From NCBI GenBank assembly GCA_040754625.1, contig JBFMCF010000124.1, positions 1 to 48,236 on the forward strand: DNA of 48,236 nucleotides. Direction: 5' to 3'. The notes below the pieces were generated by a model that saw nothing but the letters and a program-made list of their open reading frames with translations, made no database searches and was not told the DNA's origin. Position numbers and translations under genes: made by a program. Positions 25,808-45,154 of the stretch are shown here, piece by piece. This DNA is from a bacterium (GTDB lineage Bacteria > JACRDZ01 > JAQUKH01). The stretch's first letter is position 1, and every line of letters begins with the position of its first letter.

Positions 25808-25815
25808 GGAACTAT

Positions 25816-25861
25816 GGCGTTCCTTTTATCCGGTGATGGATTTAAGGGACGCCTTTTTTTT
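25816..25861 (+). terminator. Second attenuator of leader C
   Basis: GGCGTTCC (25816-25823) pairs with GGGACGCC (25846-25853), with an inner ATCC/GGAT stem, then eight Ts. It ends just before the GGGGAG ribosome binding site of the next gene. Confidence 0.85.
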
Positions 25862-25870
25862 GGGGAGAAA

Positions 25871-26389
25871 ATGAATTTTGAAAATATTGTGGAAAGAATT
25901 TCACCCACATTAAAAAATATTACATATAAACTTAACGGCCATTACACATTTTTTAACGATGATGACCTGTTCCAGGAATCGTTAATGCATCTCTGGCTGG
26001 AATACCAGGAAGGAAAATTGGACAATAAAACAGACAGCTATATTCTGCAGGGATGTTATTTCTATCTTAAAAATTACATACGTAAAGTAAACGCCGATAC
26101 AAAGTTTGTAAGCCTTGAAGCTTTAATTGATGATGGAAATAAGGCAACGAGAGAAATATTGTCTTTGAAAGACAAACATTCTGAAGATGATTTTGATAAT
26201 TTAAGCAACAAAATTTTAATTGAAAATATGATGAGAAGTTTCAGCAAGCGGGAAAGAGACATATTGACTTTAATAGCTAGGGGTTTTACAACAAGGGAAA
26301 TAGGTGAGAAATTGAATGTGTCGCATGTCGCGGTCATAAAAGTAACGAATAAAATTAAAGAAAAATGCGGGAAATACGTTAAGGCCTGA
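25871..26389 (+). CDS. Sigma-70 family (ECF-like) transcription factor
   Basis: A 172-residue protein with a sigma region 2-like N-terminal half (DDDLFQESLMHLWLEYQEGK, then YILQGCYFYLKNYIRK) and a C-terminal region 4-like helix-turn-helix (SKRERDILTLIARGFTTREIGEKLNVSHVAVIKVTNKIKEK). That HTH is also close to LuxR-type domains. The ATG at 25871 with GGGGAG upstream is chosen, since everything upstream is the leader and its terminator. No anti-sigma gene is adjacent. Because its mRNA carries an ANTAR-type leader like those of nif and amt, it may be part of the nitrogen response; this is inference. Confidence 0.75.
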   Translation: MNFENIVERISPTLKNITYKLNGHYTFFNDDDLFQESLMHLWLEYQEGKLDNKTDSYILQGCYFYLKNYIRKVNADTKFVSLEALIDDGNKATREILSLKDKHSEDDFDNLSNKILIENMMRSFSKRERDILTLIARGFTTREIGEKLNVSHVAVIKVTNKIKEKCGKYVKA

Positions 26390-30255: not shown

Positions 30256-30290
30256 GGTTACCGGAACGGTTAAAATTTTACTTGTATAAT
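30256..30290 (+). promoter_or_regulatory. nif promoter with a GGTTACC element
   Basis: GGTTACC (30256-30262) lies exactly 22 bases before TATAAT (30285-30290), inside the shared context TTACTTGTATAATCAGA. The same motif and spacing occur before the amt cluster (40176-40210). There is no TTGACA-like -35, so an activator or alternative sigma factor is likely. No sigma-54 motif was found in 30235-30524. Confidence 0.65.
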
Positions 30291-30322
30291 CAGAAGCACA
30301 TAGATGTGTAGAAAAATACAAA

Positions 30323-30357
30323 GGCGTCCCGATGAAATATCGGGATGCCTTTTTTTT
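30323..30357 (+). terminator. First attenuator of leader A
   Basis: GGCGTCCCGAT (30323-30333) pairs with ATCGGGATGCC (30339-30349), 11 bp with one wobble and a five-base loop, followed by eight Ts. Confidence 0.88.
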
Positions 30358-30366
30358 AAATGAATT

Positions 30367-30386
30367 ACCCCGATGTTCATCGGGGT
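30367..30386 (+). repeat. CCCCGATG palindromic repeat (family 3)
   Basis: ACCCCGATG TT CATCGGGGT, a perfect hairpin between the two attenuators. Related units lie at 40289-40306 and 40318-40339 in leader B. Confidence 0.8.
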
Positions 30387-30439
30387 TCAATTCGCACTAT
30401 CATCCTGATACATCGGGATGATGTACTCATTGAAGACAG

Positions 30440-30486
30440 GGGTGTCTTTTTTGTTCCATGAAGAGGAAAAAAATGACACCCTTTTT
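30440..30486 (+). terminator. Second attenuator of leader A
   Basis: GGGTGTC (30440-30446) pairs with GACACCC (30475-30481), extended by a T-rich/A-rich stem and TTCC/GGAA around a seven-base loop, then five Ts. It ends 38 bases before the nifH start. Confidence 0.82.
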
Positions 30487-30509: not shown

Positions 30510-31343
<834 letters not shown>

Positions 31344-40175: not shown

Positions 40176-40210
40176 GGTTACCAAAAACAAAAGTTTATTA
40201 CTTGTATAAT
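40176..40210 (+). promoter_or_regulatory. Ammonium-operon promoter with a GGTTACC element
   Basis: GGTTACC (40176-40182), 22 bases, TATAAT (40205-40210) in the context TTACTTGTATAATCAGA, identical in motif and spacing to the nif promoter at 30256-30290. Confidence 0.65.
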
Positions 40211-40241
40211 CAGATACACATTGAAGTGTAAAAATAACAAA

Positions 40242-40278
40242 GGCGTTCGTCATGGATAATGGCGGATGCTTTTTTTTT
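40242..40278 (+). terminator. First attenuator of leader B
   Basis: GGCGTTCGTCAT (40242-40253) pairs with ATGGCGGATGCT (40259-40270) with several wobbles and a five-base loop, then eight more Ts. Confidence 0.82.
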
Positions 40279-40288
40279 AATGAAGACA

Positions 40289-40339
40289 CCCCGATATTTT
40301 TCGGGGTAGTCTGAATTAACCCCGATGTACATCGGGGTT
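40289..40339 (+). repeat. Two CCCCGATG-type palindromic repeats (family 3) in leader B
   Basis: CCCCGA...TCGGGG at 40289-40306 and the perfect palindrome AACCCCGATGTACATCGGGGTT at 40318-40339 (quoted as two halves: AACCCCGATGT, ACATCGGGGTT) separate the two attenuators, as in leader A. Confidence 0.8.
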
Positions 40340-40403
40340 TGGTTCGTACTATTACTTCTGTTCACACTTCGTGTTTCATAAGTAATGTACTCATCAAAGA
40401 CAC

Positions 40404-40446
40404 AGGCGTCTTTTAATCCAAAAACGGATATAAAGGCGCCTTTTTT
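40404..40446 (+). terminator. Second attenuator of leader B
   Basis: AGGCGTCTTT (40404-40413) pairs with AAAGGCGCCT (40432-40441) over 10 bp with one wobble, an inner ATCC/GGAT stem, then Ts to 40446. Confidence 0.85.
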
Positions 40447-40472: not shown

Positions 40473-41171
40473 ATGAAATATTTTAAAGTTATTTTATTAC
40501 TGTCAGCTATTCACTTTTCACTATTCACTATTTCAAACGCGACACCGTCAACCCAGATATGGAATCCTTCAACGGATATTCAGGCCGTTAAAACATGGCA
40601 CCTGGGCATTGATAATTACTTTTCTGTAAAAGACAACAAGGATAATCCCGTGGCTTTCCCGACGGATGTCGGATTGACTTATGGTTTGGTGAAAAATCTG
40701 GAAGTAGGTATTGATTTTTTTGAGCCTTCCGAAAATCCAGCCCAATTTAACGTGAAATATGGATTTTCTGAAAAGGAGGTTATCCCAGCAATAGCTTTTG
40801 GTTTATGCAACGCGGGGACAAAAAAAGATGTGACTGATTACAATATTATTTACGGGGTGATCGCGAAAACATTTAATCCCATCGGGAGAATATCTCTTGG
40901 TTATTATACCGGGAATAAAAAACTTCTGATTGATGAAAATGGAGACAAAGAAAATACCGGGCTGATTGCCACATGGGATAAGGCAATAACAGACAAAGTT
41001 TGGGCCGCTGTTGATTACGCGTCAGGCAAAAGCTGGTATGGTTCAACAAGTTTTGGTTTCTCTTATTTATTCGCGCCAAATACAAGCATAATATTTGGTT
41101 ACACTATTTATAACAATGACAAGATTACTGTAAATGATACTTTTACGACACAATTAGATATTAATTTCTAA
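40473..41171 (+). CDS. Outer-membrane beta-barrel-like protein of the ammonium operon
   Basis: A 232-residue exported protein with a signal peptide (VILLLSAIHFSLFTISNA) and alternating hydrophobic strands ending in an aromatic residue (LDINF), as in outer-membrane barrels. Strand-like segments include VGLTYGLVKNLEVGIDFF, GRISLGYYTG, FGFSYLFAPN and IIFGYTIYNN. It is the first gene behind leader B and 46 bases before amt, so its expression should follow nitrogen status. The family is not recognised; a porin or a structural barrel are both possible. An AGGAG site supports the start. Confidence 0.7.
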   Translation: MKYFKVILLLSAIHFSLFTISNATPSTQIWNPSTDIQAVKTWHLGIDNYFSVKDNKDNPVAFPTDVGLTYGLVKNLEVGIDFFEPSENPAQFNVKYGFSEKEVIPAIAFGLCNAGTKKDVTDYNIIYGVIAKTFNPIGRISLGYYTGNKKLLIDENGDKENTGLIATWDKAITDKVWAAVDYASGKSWYGSTSFGFSYLFAPNTSIIFGYTIYNNDKITVNDTFTTQLDINF

Positions 41172-41197: not shown

Positions 41198-41217
41198 TCT
41201 GAAGGGAGTTGACCATA

Positions 41218-42675
41218 ATGAAAAGAAAAGAAATGTTTAAAAATATCTTTGAAATGCTGTTTATAAGCTGTCTTATATTTGGAAGCATAAATTTAGTAAG
41301 GGCTGAAGAGGCCGATACAGCCATGGAAATGACAGCCCCCGCGGCTGAAGCGCCAGTGGAGGTTTCAGTGCCACAAGCTGATCCCAGCGGGGCCGCGACA
41401 CTGGAACAAAATACTCAAGCGCCAGTTGATTATGTCTGGATTTTAGTTTGTGGATTTCTAGTGTTTTTTATGCAGGCAGGTTTTGCTATGGTTGAAGCAG
41501 GTTTTTGCCGCGCGAAAAATGCGACCAATCTCATGGCAAAAAATACAATTGATTTTGTTATTGCTTCATTATTCTTTATGGCCTTTGGTTTTGCAATAAT
41601 GATGGGCCAGGATTATAATGGATTGATCGGGACAACAGGCTGGTTTTTGCGGGGCTCAAATTATGATGTAGGAAGATATTTAATGTTTTTCTGGCAATTG
41701 GTTTTTGCAGGGACTGCCGCGACTATTGTTTCAGGAGCAGTCGCGGAACGGCTGAAATTTAAAGCATATTTTATGTATAGTATTATTGTAACCGCGATAA
41801 TTTATCCGATATACGGGCATTGGGTTTGGGGTGGAGGCTGGCTTTCGAAGCTTTCTTTTGGCGCGGGCCATGTTGATTTTGCCGGCTCGGGAGTTGTGCA
41901 TACAGTCGGTGGTTTTGTCGGCCTGGCAGGCGCTATAGTTTTAGGCCCCAGATTCGGCAAATTCAGTAAAAACGGCGAATCAAAAGCGATACCCGGCCAC
42001 AGTATCACATTAGCCGCATTAGGTACTTTTATTTTATGGTTCGGCTGGTTTGGATTTAATCCGGGTTCAACCTTCTCCGCTCATCAATTAAGGATTACTG
42101 TTGTCGCGGTGAATACAAATATGGCGGCGGCGGCAGGTGCCGCGGTGGCGCTACTTATTGTATTTATGAAAACAAAGAAATGGGATGTTGGCATGATGCT
42201 GAATGGTTGTTTAGCGGGCCTGGTAGCGGTAACTGCCCCTTGCGCTTGGATTGAAGCATGGGCGGCAGTTGTTATTGGAGGTATCGCGGGGCTGTTGGTT
42301 GTACTAAGCGTGTATTTTTGGGAGTCCAGAGGCGTTGACGATCCTGTTGGTGCGGTAAGTGTCCATGCGGTAAATGGTGTTTGGGGCCTGATTAGCGTAG
42401 GTTTGTTTGCTGATGGGACGTACGGATTGTGTACTACTTCCGGCCCTTTGGTCCAAGGCCTTTTTTATGGCGGCGGTTTTGGCCAGTTAATCGCTCAGAT
42501 CATTGGAGTAATAACCTGTGTCATCTGGGCTTTTGGTTTGGGCTATATTTCATTCAAATTAATGGACAAAAAATTTGGTATCAGGGTATCTCCTGAAGAG
42601 GAATTAAGTGGATTGGATATTCCTGAACATGGGACACCGGCATATCCAGATTTTTATACGAATAAACACAATTAG
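41218..42675 (+). CDS. amt: Ammonium transporter Amt (first copy)
   Basis: A 485-residue Amt with a cleavable signal-like N-terminus (MLFISCLIFGSINLVRA) and an Ala/Pro/Glu-rich periplasmic linker before the 11-helix core. The pore histidine pair is seen in GSGVVHTVGGF and VSVHAVNGVWG, with the conserved aspartate in GHVDFAGS. The trimeric channel brings ammonium across the inner membrane and is gated by GlnK. The ATG at 41218 with GGGAG upstream is chosen over a TTG at 41209. A palindromic repeat separates it from glnK. Confidence 0.96.
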   Translation: MKRKEMFKNIFEMLFISCLIFGSINLVRAEEADTAMEMTAPAAEAPVEVSVPQADPSGAATLEQNTQAPVDYVWILVCGFLVFFMQAGFAMVEAGFCRAKNATNLMAKNTIDFVIASLFFMAFGFAIMMGQDYNGLIGTTGWFLRGSNYDVGRYLMFFWQLVFAGTAATIVSGAVAERLKFKAYFMYSIIVTAIIYPIYGHWVWGGGWLSKLSFGAGHVDFAGSGVVHTVGGFVGLAGAIVLGPRFGKFSKNGESKAIPGHSITLAALGTFILWFGWFGFNPGSTFSAHQLRITVVAVNTNMAAAAGAAVALLIVFMKTKKWDVGMMLNGCLAGLVAVTAPCAWIEAWAAVVIGGIAGLLVVLSVYFWESRGVDDPVGAVSVHAVNGVWGLISVGLFADGTYGLCTTSGPLVQGLFYGGGFGQLIAQIIGVITCVIWAFGLGYISFKLMDKKFGIRVSPEEELSGLDIPEHGTPAYPDFYTNKHN

Positions 42676-42710: not shown

Positions 42711-42738
42711 GTAGGGGCACGGCATGCCGTGCCCCTAC
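42711..42738 (+). repeat. GTAGGGGC palindromic repeat (family 2) between amt and glnK
   Basis: A perfect 28-base palindrome: GTAGGGGCACGGCA followed by TGCCGTGCCCCTAC. The glnK ribosome binding site GGAGG starts two bases after its end. Confidence 0.9.
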
Positions 42739-42752
42739 CGGAGGAAATTAAA

Positions 42753-43091
42753 ATGAAAAAAATAGAGGCAATAATACGGCCCGAAAAATTAGAGGCTGTC
42801 AGGAAGGCGCTGGAAAAAGTAAGTTATTCAGGCCTTATGATCACGGAAATTGAAGGGCATGGCAAGCAAAAAGGGGTGGTTCAGCAATGGCGCGGTGAAA
42901 AATACAGGGTGGAACTTCTTCCAAAGATAAAAGTTGAGCTGGTTGTTAAAGACAATGAAGCAGATCCTGTAATTAAATCAATCATTGAAAATGCTAAGAC
43001 AGACGCGGTTGGAGACGGGAAAATATTTGTTTATAATATTGAGGATGTAGTGAGAATAAGGACGGAAGAAAGAGGCGAAAAGGCATTGTAA
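42753..43091 (+). CDS. glnK: PII signal protein GlnK (first copy)
   Basis: A 112-residue PII protein: KKIEAIIRPEKLEAVRKAL, T-loop GVVQQWRGEKYRVELLPK with the uridylylation-site tyrosine Y51, B-loop DAVGDGKIFV and C-loop VRIRTEERGEKAL. It senses 2-oxoglutarate and ATP/ADP and blocks Amt. The ATG at 42753 behind GGAGG gives the standard length; an in-frame ATG further upstream lies inside the palindromic repeat. Confidence 0.97.
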   Translation: MKKIEAIIRPEKLEAVRKALEKVSYSGLMITEIEGHGKQKGVVQQWRGEKYRVELLPKIKVELVVKDNEADPVIKSIIENAKTDAVGDGKIFVYNIEDVVRIRTEERGEKAL

Positions 43092-43428: not shown

Positions 43429-44757
43429 ATGGATTTAAAAGTTGCCCTGGATACGATGTGGGTCCTGGTTACGGCGATGCTTGTGTTTTTTATGAATCTT
43501 GGTTTTGCGTTTGTTGAGGCTGGCTTCGCGCGCGCTAAAAACTGCGTGAATATTTTATCGAAAAATTTCGTTGTATTCGCGGTTTCCTCGCTTGGATTTT
43601 TATTATTAGGATGGGGCCTTATGTTTGGAGACGGCAATGGTTTTATAGGTTTGAATGGGCTTTTATTTTTGGGCGGCGCGGATAATTCTCCCGCGGTTGG
43701 AGATGCTTACCAGGGTGTATATTCGGCTATGTCCTGGGCAGGTGTTCCTTTGATGGCAAAATTTTTCTTTCAGCTGGTTTTTTGCGGAACTGCCGCGACG
43801 ATTGTCTCCGGTGCTGTCGCGGAAAGGATTAAATACCTTTCGTTTATAATATTTTCTTTTATATTGACGATGTTTATTTATCCGGTTGTCGGACACTGGA
43901 TATGGGGCGGCGGTTGGCTTTCGAAAATGGGAATGTTTGATTTCTCGGGTTCAACAGTAATTCATTCGCTTGGCGGGTGGTCCGCTTTAGCGGGGATATT
44001 GGTGCTTGGGCCGCGTTTTGGAAAATATAACAGTGACGGCACAGTGAACGCTATCCCGGGGCATAATTTGTCCATGGCGACATTGGGAACTTTCGTCCTG
44101 TGGTTTGGTTGGTTCGGTTTTAATCCTGGTTCAACTATGGCCGCGAACGCGCAGGCTATAGGGCACATAGCCGTTACAACAAATACCGCGGCCGCGGCGG
44201 CAATAATGAGCGCGACGATATTTTCATGGGTATTTTTAGGAAAACCTGATCTTGGCATGACTCTGAACGGATGCCTGGCGGGCCTTGTCGCGATTACCGC
44301 GCCGTGCGCTTTTGTGAGCGTGGGGAGTTCCCTTATTATCGGCCTTATTGCCGGGGTCCTGGTGGTCCTTGCGGTAATATGGTTTGATAAAATTAAAATT
44401 GACGATCCAGTGGGCGCGACGTCCGTGCATCTCGCGAATGGAATTTTCGGGACGATATGCGTGGGCTTGTTCGCCCAGGACAAAATCACAGGCACCGCAA
44501 CAGGCAACGGACTCCTGTTCGGCGGCGGGACAAAACTTTTGTTCGCGCAATTAACAGGTGTTGTGAGCGTGGGATTATTTACTTTTCTTGCTTCATTGAT
44601 AACATGGATTATAATAAAAGCGGTATTTGGTTTAAGGGTCAGCTTGCAGGAGGAAATTGAGGGATTGGACATCGGGGAACACGGGAATTCGGCTTATCCC
44701 GAATTTTTGACGAGGAAACCGGGATATTCATTCCTGGGGGTAAAAAACGGAAATTAA
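43429..44757 (+). CDS. amt: Ammonium transporter Amt (second copy)
   Basis: A 442-residue Amt without the signal peptide and linker of the first copy; the core starts directly (DTMWVLVTAMLVFFMNLGFAF). Pore histidines lie in GSTVIHSLGGW and TSVHLANGIFG, the conserved aspartate in MFDFSGS. The two copies share the core but differ enough to be old duplicates. A good AGGAGAG site precedes the ATG. Confidence 0.96.
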   Translation: MDLKVALDTMWVLVTAMLVFFMNLGFAFVEAGFARAKNCVNILSKNFVVFAVSSLGFLLLGWGLMFGDGNGFIGLNGLLFLGGADNSPAVGDAYQGVYSAMSWAGVPLMAKFFFQLVFCGTAATIVSGAVAERIKYLSFIIFSFILTMFIYPVVGHWIWGGGWLSKMGMFDFSGSTVIHSLGGWSALAGILVLGPRFGKYNSDGTVNAIPGHNLSMATLGTFVLWFGWFGFNPGSTMAANAQAIGHIAVTTNTAAAAAIMSATIFSWVFLGKPDLGMTLNGCLAGLVAITAPCAFVSVGSSLIIGLIAGVLVVLAVIWFDKIKIDDPVGATSVHLANGIFGTICVGLFAQDKITGTATGNGLLFGGGTKLLFAQLTGVVSVGLFTFLASLITWIIIKAVFGLRVSLQEEIEGLDIGEHGNSAYPEFLTRKPGYSFLGVKNGN

Positions 44758-44815: not shown

Positions 44816-45154
44816 ATGAAAAAAATTGAAGCGATAATAAGACCTGAAAAGATAGACGCGGTCAGGGTCGGCCTTGAAAAGGTCGGATACGCGGGCATAA
44901 TGATAACGGAGATACAGGGGCACGGCAAGCAGAAAGGAATCGTCCAGCAGTGGCGGGGTGAAAAATATAAGGTGGACCTCCTGCCAAAGATTAAAATTGA
45001 AATAATTGCGAAAGACACAGACGTGAAAAAAATAGTAAATACGGTAATCGACAACGCGAGAACCGGCGAAGTCGGCGACGGCAAGATATTCGTTTCGAAT
45101 ATCGAAAACACCATACGGATACGCACGGGCGAGGAAGGAGATATTGCGATTTAA
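44816..45154 (+). CDS. glnK: PII signal protein GlnK (second copy)
   Basis: A 112-residue PII protein close to the first copy (KKIEAIIRPEKIDAVRVGL; T-loop GIVQQWRGEKYKVDLLPK with Y51; EVGDGKIFVSNIENTIRIR). It is paired with the second amt, so each transporter has its own PII. It is the last gene before a strong terminator and closes the ammonium operon. Confidence 0.97.
   Translation: MKKIEAIIRPEKIDAVRVGLEKVGYAGIMITEIQGHGKQKGIVQQWRGEKYKVDLLPKIKIEIIAKDTDVKKIVNTVIDNARTGEVGDGKIFVSNIENTIRIRTGEEGDIAI

Follow-up and report, generated by a model that had tools for sequence, protein, structure and literature searches.

A tandem ANTAR-type hexaloop leader before an ammonium transport operon, and a candidate sigma factor for a proposed two-layer nitrogen regulon

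The leader at positions 40,215–40,446 of the window (the whole analysed stretch of DNA, 48,236 nt of contig JBFMCF010000124.1, assembly GCA_040754625.1, GTDB lineage Bacteria; JACRDZ01; JAQUKH01) is, judged from its sequence, an ANTAR dual-hexaloop antiterminator, and we put at about 0.85 the probability that it acts as an ANTAR antitermination switch in a nitrogen regulon with two layers of control, sigma factor and ANTAR. ANTAR target RNAs are described as two short hairpins with six-base loops carrying A at position 1 and G at position 4 (A1/G4), the second hairpin overlapping an intrinsic terminator (PMC3369931, accessible text); the identification rests on an A1/G4 hexaloop pair overlapping a terminator, which is this published motif. 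ANTAR control of nif and amt operons is already known, since the same text reports such elements before PII, amt, nitrogenase and glutamine/glutamate synthase genes. What appears to be new, on sequence comparison, is the link of the leaders to a sigma factor and promoter motif, as well as the tandem layout of hexaloop and terminator.

The amt leader begins directly behind a bipartite promoter-like motif, GTTACC-N17-ACTTGTA (40,177–40,206, exact match); this and all other window features given below lie on the forward strand. The hexaloop hairpin P1, TACAC[ATTGAA]GTGTA (40,215–40,230), is followed by P2, AAC[AAAGGC]GTT (40,236–40,247), which has 3 bp and is kept in relatives, and by terminator 1, a stem plus U tract (40,239–40,278). 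With a 5-bp P1, a 3-bp P2 and a 5-nt linker, the leader has the geometry of an ANTAR target. The terminator 1 stem begins with its 5′ arm inside the P2 loop, so that P2 and terminator 1 are mutually exclusive. Folding further gave an extra hairpin, ACCCCGA/TCGGGGT (40,288–40,307), without a counterpart in the nif leader or in relatives, a hairpin CCCCGATGTACATCGGGG (40,320–40,337) that among leaders is present in both of those in the window and nowhere else, and a long stem with a bulged T, TAC-t-ATTACTT/AAGTAAT-GTA (40,347–40,389). A third hexaloop hairpin, P2′, AAAGAC[ACAGGC]GTCTTT (40,396–40,413), is overlapped by terminator 2 (40,404–40,446), whose 5′ arm begins in P2′. Direct reading of the sequence thus bears out the order of elements proposed in the first-pass annotation (P1 with loop ATTGAA, P2 with AAAGGC, terminator 1, a stem, P2′ with ACAGGC, terminator 2), together with its observation that all three short hairpin loops carry A1 and G4. 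The predicted fold of the whole leader reached −93.2 kcal/mol against −49.3 ± 4.3 for shuffled sequences (z −10.3).

The same element order was found at 30,296–30,486 before the nif operon, in agreement with the homology that had been claimed for the two leaders. Behind an exact copy of the promoter-like motif (30,257–30,286) lie P1, GCAC[ATAGAT]GTGT (30,296–30,309), P2, TAC[AAAGGC]GTC (30,317–30,328), with a weak stem of only two canonical closing pairs, terminator 1 (30,320–30,357), hairpin CCCCGATGTTCATCGGGG (30,368–30,385), a long stem (30,395–30,425), P2′, AAGAC[AGGGGT]GTCTT (30,433–30,448) and terminator 2 (30,440–30,486), the terminators, hairpin CCCCGATGTTCATCGGGG and long stem by folding and the hexaloop hairpins by sequence. 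A1/G4 loops occur in both window leaders, and the nif leader also folds better than its shuffles (z −8.6). The long stems had been said to pair equally well through compensating change, with the same bulged T. Both-sided changes were indeed present at 4 of 10 compared pairs, and pairing holds at all ten positions in amt but at nine in nif, where one outer pair is C·A; the bulged T is seen in amt, whereas the nif stem folded alone favours a U·G pair. Only the two window leaders of this genome share the long stem and the CCCCGAU hairpins, relatives having neither, and the stems between terminator 1 and P2′ look like lineage-specific spacers.

Two more leaders are present in the genome from which the window comes, the third upstream of another amt gene and the fourth upstream of a glutamine synthetase gene. 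A covariance model built from five leaders found leaders in 12 of the 26 genomes searched, including independent ones in Candidatus Omnitrophota. Each Omnitrophota leader found by the RNA model carries GTTACC-N17-ACTTGTA although the motif is not part of the model. The motif lies just upstream of every RNA-model leader at a spacing of exactly 17, the sole exception being a weak match (L132, E 0.09) that was taken as chance. In genome G003, the nearest nif relative, nifH is not preceded by a leader of this kind, and neither the promoter motif nor a sigma factor match was found.

The P1/P2 alignments were curated by hand, automatic picking having misassigned some leaders, so that a fairer test of the loop rule is given by hairpins picked by stem sequence alone (CAC-N6-GTG within 100 nt of the promoter motif). 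Such a hairpin was found in 29 of 44 leaders, with G at loop position 4 in all 29 and either A (22) or G (7) at position 1; any other loop size gave 0–5 hairpins and the upstream control two. The relaxed position 1 fits the EutV structure, in which contacts are made to G4 but not to A1 (PMC8934654). Covariation, the statistical check that the first-pass annotation had proposed for its fold, was scored for P1 at 0.274 over 31 leaders, a value reached by none of 500 shuffles; one P1 pair is G-C in 14 leaders, A-U in 11 and G-U in five. This supports the view that the RNA fold is under selection. P2 gave no covariation support, its three inner pairs being kept in an almost invariant sequence, as would be expected if the P2 sequence must also form the terminator, which begins within P2 in most leaders. 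Two leaders (L205 and L174) lack a clean P1, and a gapped P1–P2 pattern at fixed spacing gave no matches.

In the window genome (2.75 Mb, 98% complete) there is a single ANTAR protein; it is of the GAF-ANTAR type, 240 aa long, with an ANTAR domain above the Pfam cut-off (PF03861, E 3.4e-17). Its gene (L001, 1468–2190) lies immediately downstream of a glutamine synthetase gene, its start adjoining the end of that gene. The protein matches Rv1626, EutV and NasR; in a comparison covering four species of the window's phylum, its closest named relatives are from Candidatus Omnitrophota. In a by-eye comparison, the counterparts of EutV R142, K143, Y164, M172 and R175 are kept, and four contact residues are altered (K147 to Arg, N173 to Asp, E160 to Ser and R177 to Ser), E160 and R177 being RNA-binding residues in EutV (PMC8934654). 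The E160 counterpart is also missing from two Omnitrophota ANTAR proteins compared.

The proposed reader of the promoter motif is an ECF-like sigma factor encoded at 25,814–26,389. It scored 49.4 bits against TIGR02937 (cut-off 42.9) and below the cut-off against Pfam sigma models, contains region 2 and region 4 of the sigma-70 family, and is 47% identical to a sigma factor encoded directly upstream of an Omnitrophota amt leader. Its AlphaFold model (mean pLDDT 75) matches sigma-factor structures domain by domain, the whole-chain arrangement being uncertain. Of 23 genomes, 17 contain exact motif matches, 45 sites in all, and the reversed-pattern control gave none; in 193 Omnitrophota genomes there were 85 matches in 39 genomes against 12 isolated reversed-pattern matches (our count). 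Among the 23 genomes, 15 have the sigma gene, all of them with the motif, and six lack both. The gene stands directly before many leaders, about 150 nt or less upstream of the motif in 14 of the 15, the window genome being the exception. In the 193 Omnitrophota genomes, sigma gene and motif were both present in 33, motif only in 6, sigma gene only in 19 and neither in 135 (Fisher p 7e-18, the related genomes not being independent), and the motif lies 3–109 nt downstream of 28 of 53 sigma genes. We infer that the sigma factor reads GTTACC-N17-ACTTGTA, co-occurrence and adjacency being no proof. Like ECF-type sigma factors, the candidates have about 170–190 aa, sigma-2 and sigma-4 regions and a bipartite motif with a fixed 17-nt spacer; unlike the usual members, their gene is found directly before ANTAR leaders of nitrogen genes.

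A second hairpin-terminator unit is not confined to the window. Twelve leaders, both window leaders included, have (A/G)GAC[R..G..]GUC as a P2′ over a second terminator. In all 12 the P2′ 5′ arm is complementary and G4 is present, and the conservation of this arm, which is dispensable for terminator 2, points to use of the P2′ hairpin itself. No separate P1 accompanies P2′, and the existing P1 lies farther away than a linker accepted by EutV would allow. In a published proposal, the ANTAR dimer first binds P1 and afterwards passes to P2 (PMC8934654), and a P1–P2–P2′ series would extend that model. The porin-amt leader of a sister species (L167; G001:C20) contains a single unit whose terminator resembles terminator 2 of the window, as though recombination between P2 and P2′ had removed terminator 1.

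Three other explanations were weighed against these data. ANTAR might control only P1–P2 and terminator 1, with P2′ and terminator 2 a plain terminator or decayed copy passed by some constant readthrough; several leaders with one unit only and the missing P1 next to P2′ speak for this, and it is a minority possibility that we consider doubtful, given that an arm not needed for terminator 2 remains complementary, with G4, in every tandem leader. A different objection concerns the promoter: the ANTAR reading may be right and the motif still be read by the housekeeping sigma factor with an activator at GTTACC, the ECF-like sigma factor being otherwise employed. In the window genome the motif does run into TATAAT (ACTTGTATAAT), a good −10 hexamer, but relatives have ACTTGTA without TATAAT, the spacing of exactly 17 in all RNA-model leaders would be expected if a single sigma factor reads both blocks, and the co-occurrence and adjacency of sigma gene and motif also count against it, which makes this explanation improbable.

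Tandem terminators are known in other attenuators too, and this is the sole point in favour of regarding the leader as a riboswitch, a small-RNA target or a leader-peptide attenuator instead of an ANTAR target. Against it stand an Rfam search of the window that matched no family, the agreement of loop rule and hairpin sizes with ANTAR targets, and the position of the gene for the only ANTAR protein next to glnA, and we regard an origin of this kind as very improbable.

The reading of the leader as an ANTAR switch would work as follows. In the first layer, the ECF-like sigma factor (25,814–26,389) would direct RNA polymerase to GTTACC-N17-ACTTGTA upstream of P1. In the second layer, whose mechanism is known from EutV and NasR and whose parts are recognized here by sequence, P2 would be absorbed into terminator 1 and transcription would stop when no active GAF-ANTAR protein is present, whereas an active dimer would bind P1 and then P2, block terminator 1 and let the polymerase continue. 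Passage through P2′ and terminator 2 would need a second capture, either by the dimer passed along from P2 or by another one, and the second unit may tighten the off state. Nitrogen status is the probable signal and would reach the switch by way of the GAF domain or of the adjacent glutamine synthetase. In the window genome the regulon would comprise nif, ammonium transport with PII and one glutamine synthetase. Specifically, the nif leader precedes nifH (30,513–31,343, PF00142), two PII-like nifI genes and nifDKENB-type genes. The amt leader is followed by a gene for a porin-like secreted protein of no assigned family (40,473–41,171, in the same place in relatives), an ammonium transporter (41,209–42,675, PF00909), a PII protein (42,729–43,091, PF00543), a second ammonium transporter (43,429–44,757, PF00909) and a second PII protein (44,816–45,154, PF00543). 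The porin-like protein, which lacks a Pfam match and whose gene is kept at this position in both phyla, ahead of amt, may form an ammonium channel in the outer membrane.

The leaders resemble the targets of EutV (eut, E. faecalis), NasR (nasF) and AmiR (amiE) in their two short A1/G4 hexaloop hairpins, in the position of P2 in the terminator 5′ arm, and in having an ANTAR protein in the genome and nitrogen genes downstream (PMC3369931 and PMC8934654, accessible text). They differ from these targets, as described there, in that relatives often have G as the first loop base and that a second P2′-terminator unit follows P2 in the tandem leaders; the regulator here is also a GAF-ANTAR protein and not a response regulator. 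ANTAR regulons described in Pelobacter carbinolicus (nitrogenase) and Desulfotomaculum acetoxidans (13 elements in six units) similarly place leaders of nif, amt, PII and glutamine/glutamate synthase genes under ANTAR, but they belong to other phyla, and the accessible text of PMC3369931 mentions neither a linked sigma factor nor a promoter motif in common. In the open-access literature we found neither an ECF sigma factor described in connection with ANTAR leaders nor any account of ANTAR control in Omnitrophota, which is not proof of absence.

Sigma-54 control of nitrogen genes is familiar from Proteobacteria; the present results suggest a different arrangement, in which a dedicated sigma factor is combined with filters at the RNA level. 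For host bacteria known mostly from metagenomes they provide a concrete, testable nitrogen-control circuit with named candidate regulators, and the tandem leaders offer a test of the published movement of ANTAR dimers between hexaloops.

Across the genomes, genes behind the motifs encode glutamine synthetases I and III, glutamate synthase, ammonium transporters and PII, with nifH in the window. In three genomes (L165, L190 and L193 in G001, G096 and G082, respectively) the motif precedes a c-di-AMP riboswitch (RF00379, 63–81 bits) with no ANTAR leader behind the motif; in L165 the downstream gene is KdpA by Pfam, and in the other two the downstream products have similar N-termini. In the window genome, one motif (L170; G000:C112:13397-13426, minus strand) stands before a TrkA-type potassium-transport gene, again with no ANTAR leader. 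The presence of kdpA-type and trkA-like genes behind the motif suggests that potassium uptake shares this promoter with the nitrogen genes. A broader scheme, to which we give slightly better than an even chance, is that in Omnitrophota and the small phylum of the window a dedicated ECF-like sigma factor starts nitrogen transcripts, each branch then having its own RNA filter to control elongation (ANTAR hexaloops, or the c-di-AMP riboswitch for kdp behind the same motif), and that tandem leaders hand one dimer along.

A class I amidotransferase and an Hcp-like protein are also encoded behind motifs. At one locus (L176; G078:C42) the place of amt behind the sigma gene and an ANTAR leader is taken by a prismane/Hcp-family gene.
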